A stretch of 64,000 bases of DNA, from assembly GCA_903922735.1 (NCBI GenBank), contig CAIXUZ010000023.1, positions 1 through 64,000 on the forward strand, read 5' to 3'. The notes under the pieces are model-generated. The model did no database searches and had not been told where the DNA came from. It was given only the letters and a program-made list of their open reading frames with translations. This stretch comes from an uncultured Verrucomicrobia subdivision 3 bacterium. GTDB taxonomy: Bacteria; Verrucomicrobiota; Verrucomicrobiia; Limisphaerales; UBA11358. The stretch's first letter is position 1; every line of letters starts with the position of its first letter. The position numbers were made by a program, and so were the translations under genes. Shown in pieces: positions 55,464 to 57,986 of the stretch.

Positions 55464-56550
55464 GACAGCACTCCTTTCCCGATTCCAGCTCCGCGACCGC
55501 CGGCCGTTCCCGCCGCCCGCCCGGGCCGCTGCCGATGTTCCGGCCGATGCTATGGATGCGGAGCCCTAGGCAGCCGTTGCAGGCATCCCCGGTTTCCGTG
55601 ATGCACGCCTTGTTCGGATAAATCTCGTAAAGCCGGCGGTATTTCAGCGGCGTGAGGTTCGGCATGAAAACATTCGCGCCCCGCTGCAGGCCCAGTTCGC
55701 GTCCGTTTTTTTTATTGATGGTGGCCAGCGCCGTCGTCGCCGGAATGTTCGCATCCGGCCGCACCAGCCGCGTCAAGGCGATGGCCTTATAGACCATCAA
55801 CTCGTGGTTCGGAACCTGTTCACCGTTCACCGACGGGAAGAATTGCATCCCGCTGCCCAGCGGCGTGGCCGGGTGCGGAATGAACGGACCGATGCCGATC
55901 ATGTCCAGATCCATTTCGCGGAACAGCGCGATGTCCTTCGCCACGCTGGCGTAAGTCTGGCCGGGAATGCCGACCATGATGCCGCTGCCGACTTCATAAC
56001 CCAAATCGCGCAGCCGCCGCAAAATGGCGATCCGGTCGCACTTGCGGTTTCCGGTCGGCGGATGAATCTCGTCGAACAAATTCCGATCCGAGGTTTCAAA
56101 CCGGAGCAGGTAACGGTCGGCCCCGGCGGCGCGCCAGGCCGCCAATTCCTTGTCCAGCCGCTCGCCTAGGCTCAGCGTCACGGCCAGCGGGGTTTCGCTT
56201 TTGATCCGCCGGACCACTTCCGCCAGCCAGCGGGCCGTAATGCCGTAATCCTCACCCGCCTGCAACACCACCGTGCCATAGCCGAACTTCATCGCCTGTT
56301 GCGCGGCCTCCAGGATTTCATCCGCCTCCATCCGGTAACGCGTCAGGTTTGAATTTCCGATCCGCAGTCCGCAATAGGCGCATTGCCGCGAACAGAAATT
56401 GGAAATCTCCACCAGGCCGCGCAGATGCACCGCATCGCCAACCTGGGCGCGGCGGGTCTCGTCGGCGCGGCGCCACAACTCCTGTAGTCGGTCCGGATTC
56501 GCTTCGCGAAGCCAGCCGAGAATTTGCGCTTGGTCCATCTTTATGCTCAT
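55456..56550 (-). CDS. hydE: [FeFe]-hydrogenase maturase HydE (radical SAM)
   Basis: A 364-residue radical SAM enzyme taking part in H-cluster assembly (processing of the iron-cysteine complex made by HydG). The radical SAM motif is C53-x3-C57-x2-C60 (FCSRQCAYCGLR), with QAGEDYG and RFETSDRNLFDEIHPP following as HydE-type segments. ATG 56550 (MSIKMDQAQIL) overlaps the hydF stop as ATGA; the frame extends upstream only as antisense sequence. The C-terminal tail (about residues 335-364) is longer than usual. Confidence 0.93.
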   Translation of the reverse strand: MSIKMDQAQILGWLREANPDRLQELWRRADETRRAQVGDAVHLRGLVEISNFCSRQCAYCGLRIGNSNLTRYRMEADEILEAAQQAMKFGYGTVVLQAGEDYGITARWLAEVVRRIKSETPLAVTLSLGERLDKELAAWRAAGADRYLLRFETSDRNLFDEIHPPTGNRKCDRIAILRRLRDLGYEVGSGIMVGIPGQTYASVAKDIALFREMDLDMIGIGPFIPHPATPLGSGMQFFPSVNGEQVPNHELMVYKAIALTRLVRPDANIPATTALATINKKNGRELGLQRGANVFMPNLTPLKYRRLYEIYPNKACITETGDACNGCLGLRIHSIGRNIGSGPGGRRERPAVAELESGKECCHA

Positions 56551-57986
56551 GCGGGCAAGGCCTCCTTTGGGGCCGGGCCGATCGCACGGTCGGCCGGCCT
56601 GCGCGGCCCGGCGTCCCGGGCCGTCATTTTTTCCGCATTTCGATAATACTCCAGCGCCGCCGGAAACGGCTGCAGCGCGCGCTCGAAAATTCCCAGGCTG
56701 TAGGCGATGGTCAGGCCGTAGTTCGTGATCGGCACGCCGGCCTGCTGGCAGCGCAGGATGCGGCTCAACATTTCGCGGCGGTTCCACATGCAGGCGCCGC
56801 AGTGGATCACCAGCTTGTAATCGGCCAGGTCGGCGGGAAAATCGCGGCCCTGCGCATGCTCAAACTGGATTTTCGCGCCGGTGTATTGCGTCAGCCAGCG
56901 CGGAATCTTCACGCGCCCGATGTCCTCCCCGATCGGATGATGCGAGCACGCCTCGGCTATCAGCACGCGGTCGCCGCCGCGCAGGTGTTCAATGGCGAGC
57001 GCGCCCCGCACTTGCGCCAGCAGATCGCCTTTGAAGCGGGACATGAGAATCGAAAAGCTCGTCATCGGCACCTCGCGCGGCGTATCGGCGGCGACTTTCA
57101 AAAACGCCTGCGAATCGGTGACGACCAGTTTCGGCGGCACTTTCAGTCGGTCCAGCGCGCGGCGCAACTCGCGTTCCTTTACGACCAGGCAGCACGCGTC
57201 GCTGTCCAGCAGATCGCGGATGGACTGCACCTGCGGCAGAATCAGCCGGCCTTTCGGCGCTTCCTTGTCAATCGGCACCACCAGCACGGCCATTTCGCCG
57301 GGGCCGACCAGATCGCCGAGAATCGCCGGACTGTCTATGAAATCCGGCGGCGCCGCGGCAAGCAGCGCGGCGCGCAATTCCGGAATCCCCATACCAGTCA
57401 GTGCTGAGGTGTTGACGATACGGACGGAAGCAGCTTCGCATTTCCTCTCAGCACGGCCATCTCCCGTGGGGAGAGGGAGAATCGTTTGCGGTCCCACCGG
57501 AAAACCAGCGACTGGATTTACCAATGTATCTGGCGAATTGTCCGGAACGTGGATGGCTGTTCCCTCTCCCCGGGGGAGAGGGTTAGGGTGAGGGGAAACG
57601 CGACAATCAGATTTGTTGAACACCACGACCGTCGGTGTTTTACGCGCCGTCAGCCCGGCCAGAATATCCTCCTCGTAATTTCCCCAGGCCCCGGCTTCAG
57701 TGACGAGCACGGCCAGATCGGTTCGCTCCAAAACCTGCCGCGTCTTTTGCACCCGCAGCGCGCCAAGTTCCCCGGTGTCGTCAATGCCGGCGGTGTCAAT
57801 GAACAGCACCGGTCCGAGCGGCAGCAGTTCCATCGGCTTCTCAACCGGATCGGTGGTCGTGCCCGCGACGGGCGAGACGATGGCAACCTGCTGGCGCGTC
57901 AGCACGTTGAGCAGCGACGATTTGCCGACGTTGCGTCGTCCCAACAGCGCGATGTGCAGCCGCAGGCCTTTGGGCGCGGTGGTCAT
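56547..57986 (-). CDS. hydF: [FeFe]-hydrogenase maturase HydF (GTPase/scaffold)
   Basis: A 479-residue scaffold that assembles the diiron subcluster. GTPase motifs: G1 GRRNVGKSS (16-24), G3 DTAG and G4 NKSD (124-127); the [4Fe-4S] motif CxH...HCxxC is visible as EACSHHP and IHCGACMW. Between G4 and the G5-like SAL (194) lie ~66 residues, about 35-40 more than usual, including SPHPNPLPRGEG; DNA here is a palindromic repeat read in frame (57460-57582). The protein is also longer at its C-terminus. ATG 57986 overlaps the aspA stop (ATGA). Function is likely retained because the frame is intact. Confidence 0.9.
   Translation of the reverse strand: MTTAPKGLRLHIALLGRRNVGKSSLLNVLTRQQVAIVSPVAGTTTDPVEKPMELLPLGPVLFIDTAGIDDTGELGALRVQKTRQVLERTDLAVLVTEAGAWGNYEEDILAGLTARKTPTVVVFNKSDCRVSPHPNPLPRGEGTAIHVPDNSPDTLVNPVAGFPVGPQTILPLPTGDGRAERKCEAASVRIVNTSALTGMGIPELRAALLAAAPPDFIDSPAILGDLVGPGEMAVLVVPIDKEAPKGRLILPQVQSIRDLLDSDACCLVVKERELRRALDRLKVPPKLVVTDSQAFLKVAADTPREVPMTSFSILMSRFKGDLLAQVRGALAIEHLRGGDRVLIAEACSHHPIGEDIGRVKIPRWLTQYTGAKIQFEHAQGRDFPADLADYKLVIHCGACMWNRREMLSRILRCQQAGVPITNYGLTIAYSLGIFERALQPFPAALEYYRNAEKMTARDAGPRRPADRAIGPAPKEALPA
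57460..57582. repeat. Palindromic repeat pair inserted inside hydF
   Basis: Two hairpins, 57460-57474 (TCTCCC-GTG-GGGAGA) and 57562-57582 (a near-perfect CCCTCTCCCC/GGGGAGAGGG palindrome), flank about 85 bases. The right hairpin and the adjoining GGTTAGGGTGAGGGG form the GC-rich repeat that in many bacterial genomes is translated as PHPNPLPRGEG. The whole piece sits in frame within hydF. Confidence 0.7.

Follow-up and report, generated by a model that had tools for sequence, protein, structure and literature searches.

What is the palindromic DNA that lengthens the GTPase domain of one verrucomicrobial HydF, how did it come to lie there, and is the protein that carries it still a working one? 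The window analysed here, a stretch of 64,000 nucleotides, belongs to contig 23 of a MAG (95% complete, 5.6% contamination) that is called G000 below; the genomes G002, G003, G006, G015, G020, G026 and G070 are members of the same genus.

The hydF gene and the element within it

The hydF coding sequence occupies 56547..57986 of the minus strand (ATG at 57984-57986) and encodes an [FeFe]-hydrogenase maturation GTPase of 479 amino acids. The protein, scored with one extra upstream residue, reached 543.6 bits against the cut-off of 325.55 for TIGR03918 (GTP_HydF) and is thus a member of this equivalog, and the G domain, the HydF dimerization domain and the HydF tetramerization domain of Pfam were found in it. 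By reading of the sequence, the G4 motif NKSD was placed at residues 124-127 (57606..57617, minus strand) and the G5-like motif TSAL at residues 193-196 (57399..57410, minus strand). The N, K and D of the former were invariant in 40 HydF proteins, and all residues that were invariant in 40 aligned HydFs, G000 included, were kept; they cover the G motifs as well as the cysteines and histidines that bind the cluster. The neighbours of hydF are hydE, an [FeFe]-hydrogenase-like gene, hydG and an aspartase-like gene, with hydE and hydG intact, and a genome search of G000 gave no second full-length HydF match. The first-pass annotation had called HydF an essential cofactor scaffold; this holds for H-cluster maturation but not for the genus, where HydF is accessory and was detected in 8 of 49 genomes (E <= 1e-50).

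Between the two motifs lies a complete 150-bp A/B dimer of the BoxC/TM type (57445..57594, minus strand; residues 131-181), which runs left to right in the orientation of hydF and matches about 13 other full copies in G000 in length and architecture. Its left arm (57562..57594, plus strand) is an intrastrand-triplex motif of type A, CCCTCTCCC-CGG-GGGAGAGGG-TTA-GGGTGAGGG, and fits the published consensus exactly. The right arm (57445..57477, minus strand) is of type B with a CCG loop, CCCTCTCCC-CAC-GGGAGATGG-CCG-TGCTGAGAG, and its third strand is degraded, with 4 mismatches in 21 positions to the right-arm consensus. The spacer of 84 nt between them (57478..57561, minus strand) was delimited by alignment of the copies and is read as a low-confidence, probably disordered loop. 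The two hairpins noticed earlier in the extra DNA are thus real and turned out to be the two arms of a single element. Likewise, the repeat translated as PHPNPLPRGEG is indeed in frame, being the translation of the left-arm complement on the hydF strand; the insert, however, is the whole 150-bp element, of which this stretch represents only the left arm.

The maximal inverted repeat extends slightly beyond the element (57436..57603, minus strand; arms 57436-57478 and 57561-57603, 43 nt each and 77% complementary) and folds as a single long hairpin, with a z-score of -3.64 as DNA and -76 kcal/mol (z -4.98) as RNA. Palindromes of the CCCTCTCCC type, with up to 3 mismatches allowed, occurred twice in the window, both times in hydF, and in none of 100 dinucleotide shuffles.

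The insertion was not a clean one. Although the element adds 50 codons, the net gain of the segment is 44 residues, and the AAEPDATLLGRFAEQK-like sequence found after NKxD in congeners can no longer be recognised beside it; on both grounds, some of the ancestral stretch from G4 to the last strand before G5 was lost or overwritten. No target-site duplication was seen at the element.

Copies of the element in the genome and the genus

The search of the genome for other copies that the first-pass annotation had proposed was rewarding. With up to 3 mismatches allowed, the half-site CCCTCACCCTGACCCTCTCCC was found 52 times in G000, with no match to the reversed control, and about 14 full copies were recognised in these sequence searches, each made up of a left arm and, in inverted orientation, a right arm. 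Full copies mostly measured 145-157 bp, besides 132-bp variants and one degraded variant of 191 bp; the copy in hydF has a length of exactly 150 bp. Repeats of the class known as BoxC, PIT or TM(ECO), which form intrastrand triplexes, have been described from E. coli and more than 260 other genomes (PMC4666352). The TM(ECO) pattern CCCTCNCCC N3-6 GGGNGAGGG N3 GGGNGAGGG was matched exactly by the hydF left arm at 57562 and only in degenerate form by the right arm; exact matches numbered 9 in G000 and were present in 27 of 49 genus genomes, and a control pattern gave none.

Each of the five inverted dimers of E. coli joins a motif of type A to one of type B (PMC4666352), and so does the hydF element, with TTA in its left loop (A) and CCG in its right loop (B). 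Its left arm is identical in 21 of 21 bases to the left arm of the lldD-trmL dimer of E. coli MG1655, and its third strands point outward as they do there. The likeness to BoxC/TM(ECO) therefore covers the arm consensus, the multi-copy state and the inverted A+B dimer. Relative to the MG1655 dimer, however, the spacer differs, the length is 150 rather than about 129 bp, the right arm is degraded and the host is a verrucomicrobium; and whereas BoxC elements typically lie between genes, the hydF copy sits within a gene whose frame it leaves open.

Such a position is not peculiar to hydF. Five of the 14 full copies in G000 lay inside open genes and nine were not inside a long open gene; five of these nine were tested, and none split a single gene, all being placed between different genes, although in one case a family match was obtained for a single neighbour only. 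With coding-type composition on both sides, repeats of the same family were embedded in the open frames of Mfd, HsdR, KsgA, MutS, TsaD, PurL (at two positions), XerC/D, a metal P-type ATPase, an RluA-family synthase and a protein without NCBIfam match that we take to be YyaL-like. Against solved relatives, the insert accounts for about 57 extra residues in KsgA and about 78 in TsaD, where one loop apparently holds several repeat types. The purL insert has a tandem heptad-type repeat (SEIANRKSQIANNKR) beside the palindrome, the second repeat lying elsewhere in the gene. The MutS loop that precedes Walker A holds BoxC repeats in G000, and in G015 it has another repeat-like stretch; a three-hairpin element occupies a further loop of the G015 MutS. 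Most copies of the element are open throughout in one to three of the six reading frames, so survival in frame is easily achieved. Palindromic repeats in conserved genes are a genome-wide habit in this genus, and hydF is one case of it.

In-frame palindromes as such are already known. Rickettsia palindromic elements (RPE) are palindromes of about 150 bp that lie in frame in unrelated conserved genes (PMC10969869, PMC3733652), and GTAG/CGTC-tagged REP dimers have been found within ORFs of conserved, often repair-related proteins, also in the verrucomicrobium Opitutus terrae (PMC3733652). The hydF element resembles the former in being about 150 bp long, palindromic and in frame, and one repeat family lies in frame in several unrelated conserved genes of G000 as well; the likeness meant here is that of the phenomenon, and the host phylum is different. 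With the tagged REPs it shares the arrangement of palindromic dimers encoded within conserved proteins, Verrucomicrobia included, but its arms are of the BoxC/TM type and no association with RAYT was found. No TM motif was present within about 1.5 kb of any of the five Y1_Tnp loci of G000, and mobilisation by a linked RAYT, which would show the flanking arrangement of REP/RAYT systems, was rejected on this ground.

The G4-G5 segment in other HydF proteins

The number of residues between NKSD and SAL had been put at about 66, and exactly 66 were counted between the D and the S; alignment with the uninserted congeners, carried out as had been suggested, gave 22 at the same place. Five genus members have this ordinary segment of 22 residues (G002, G003, G015, G020 and G070). 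For a wider comparison the segment was anchored at NKxD and at a conserved PIDKEAPKGRL-type motif, and 77 HydFs from many phyla could be parsed out of 80 fetched. The anchored segment measured 66 residues in 70 of them, G002, G003, G015 and G020 being counted here, 65 in another six and 80 in one, against 110 in G000. This segment of HydF is near-invariant in length across phyla. The loop is indeed far longer than usual, as 76 of these 77 proteins, mostly from other phyla, have 65-66 residues there, and a similarly long loop in many unrelated HydFs, named beforehand as the observation that would speak against an insertion, was not found among the 77. The protein with 80 residues instead of 66, from a Phycisphaerales MAG, was the only parsed HydF outside the genus with an expanded segment after G4. 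The G070 MAG has strain variants of hydF, which sit on two overlapping contigs and differ in the G4-G5 loop; an assembly break at a repeat was considered for this genome and dismissed, since the contigs overlap and carry ordinary loops.

Two further members of the genus have the same loop filled with other DNA. The HydF of G026 carries a pair of GGCACAGGCGTCCCGCCTGTG palindromes there, whose family gave 24 matches in that genome, and the HydF of G006 carries a three-hairpin element (G006:C21:21666-21771) that is the sole copy of its family in G006, although this family gave 9-43 matches across G020, G015 and G026, with copies in the tens in G015 and G026. The hydF allele of G006 may thus derive from a relative, the family being single-copy in G006 and multi-copy in these three genomes. 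In a tree of hydF outside the loop, G006 grouped with the uninserted G015, and AU tests rejected the clades G000+G006 (p 0.0047) and G000+G006+G026 (p 0.0042). Because these common-origin clades are rejected, the insertions of G000, G006 and G026 look like three independent events. An older insertion shared by G000 and G006, suggested by similar first loop codons, was also tried and abandoned: the alignment gave P of 0.03 and 0.5 on the two sides, and the AU test rejects the clade. Under a uniform model, the chance that two further independent events fall in the same 21-codon segment is about 0.0026, which points to the G4-G5 segment as a tolerant site, or to an insertion preference, rather than to luck.

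The state of the protein and the reading of the insertion

Outside the loop, pairwise dN/dS with G000 ranged from 0.088 to 0.119, an average over the time before and after the insertion. In an AF2 model of the G000 HydF (shallow alignment of 40 sequences, mean pLDDT 76, numbering +1 relative to the protein), residues 132-175 scored below 50 and were followed by a helix at 179-186 (RAERKCEA) and a strand at 190-193 leading to G5; most remaining regions scored well, and the nearest solved folds were HydF structures. The helix straddles the end of the right arm and is partly built of its residues. The G006 model has a low-confidence stretch in the same place, at 131-179. From the dN/dS near 0.1, the intact motifs and the undisturbed core of the model, the G000 HydF is very probably a working protein, with a loop that is probably disordered.

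Starting from the established identity, copy number and frame of the element, the independent insertions in the same loop and the conservation of the remaining HydF, we favour, with a probability of about 0.8, a tolerated coding insertion of the RPE kind, in which a BoxC/TM A/B dimer entered hydF whole and in frame between G4 and G5. The non-autonomous palindrome would have been moved by an activity acting in trans, and the 150-bp inverted dimer would have inserted as a unit, at the cost of some of the native helix region. Read in one of its open frames, it would then give about 50 residues, forming a probably disordered loop away from the core. Insertions that break genes would be lost and in-frame ones in tolerant loops would persist, and purifying selection would maintain the HydF that carries the loop. 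The insert is presumably translated and not removed, and the loop derived from it is likely to be neutral or nearly so.

That the insert has been domesticated, an adapted loop having changed HydF function, for example with helix alpha4 rebuilt from right-arm residues and the GTP switch or partner release tuned, seems unlikely to us. The predicted helix at the right-arm end would suit it, as would the three non-synonymous changes among the four in the right arm, the unrelated elements in the same loop of G006 and G026, and the report that the GTPase domain of HydF is a switch in which GTP binding speeds the release of HydE and HydG (PMC5431965). However, four right-arm changes against 0-3 in 12 other copies are no clear excess, and an adaptive surplus was rejected as indistinguishable from the other copies; the G006 model has no confident rebuilt helix, and the five congeners named above do with the ordinary segment. 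Of the two possibilities given originally, domesticated or tolerated, the second, a multi-copy palindromic repeat tolerated in frame in a loop, is supported, and the first has faint hints at most. Since the GTPase domain acts as a switch (PMC5431965), an effect of the loop on nucleotide exchange, which had also been proposed, is possible.

A role of the insert chiefly as nucleic acid, with a hairpin in the middle of the mRNA or a DNA triplex affecting hydF expression or local genome stability, is very improbable. The strong RNA fold agrees with it, and members of the TM class fold into triplexes in vitro and are markers of unstable loci in E. coli (PMC4666352), but RNA does not form triplexes of the purine motif (PMC4666352), the right arm has a degraded third strand, and the inserts of the other two HydFs share the loop and not the sequence. 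Hardly credible is a decaying, non-functional hydF whose frame has not yet been lost. The insertion does fall in a segment that is normally invariant in length, and dN/dS is slightly higher in the pairs of G000 with G006 and G015; nevertheless, the values stay near 0.1, the frame is full-length with its invariant motifs, intact hydE and hydG and the hydrogenase-like gene adjoin it, and the genome search gave no other full-length HydF match.

A bolder proposal, which we regard as quite doubtful, is that the HydF G4-G5 segment, with the MutS loop before Walker A as a second case, is a recurrent landing site where unrelated palindromes are kept since a disordered loop gives a selectable change of the nucleotide switch. 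If true, mobile palindromes would keep supplying the genus with functional variation in its protein loops.

In a literature search that covered few subscription journals, we came across no description of BoxC/TM dimers within coding genes or of palindromic inserts in HydF, and both the presence of BoxC elements in coding DNA and the three hits on a single loop are apparently new, at least to us. With the tolerated insertion in hydF, the in-frame insertion of palindromes, for which Rickettsia is the best-known case, is extended to Verrucomicrobia and their repeats of the BoxC/triplex class. For annotation it is a caution, as PHPNPLPRGEG-like stretches in predicted proteins are derived from repeats. 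The HydF set is also a natural experiment, in which an enzyme segment of almost invariant length has been filled three times by unrelated repeats and uninserted sister proteins are at hand for comparison, and it makes the question of neutral versus useful loop insertion directly testable by biochemistry.
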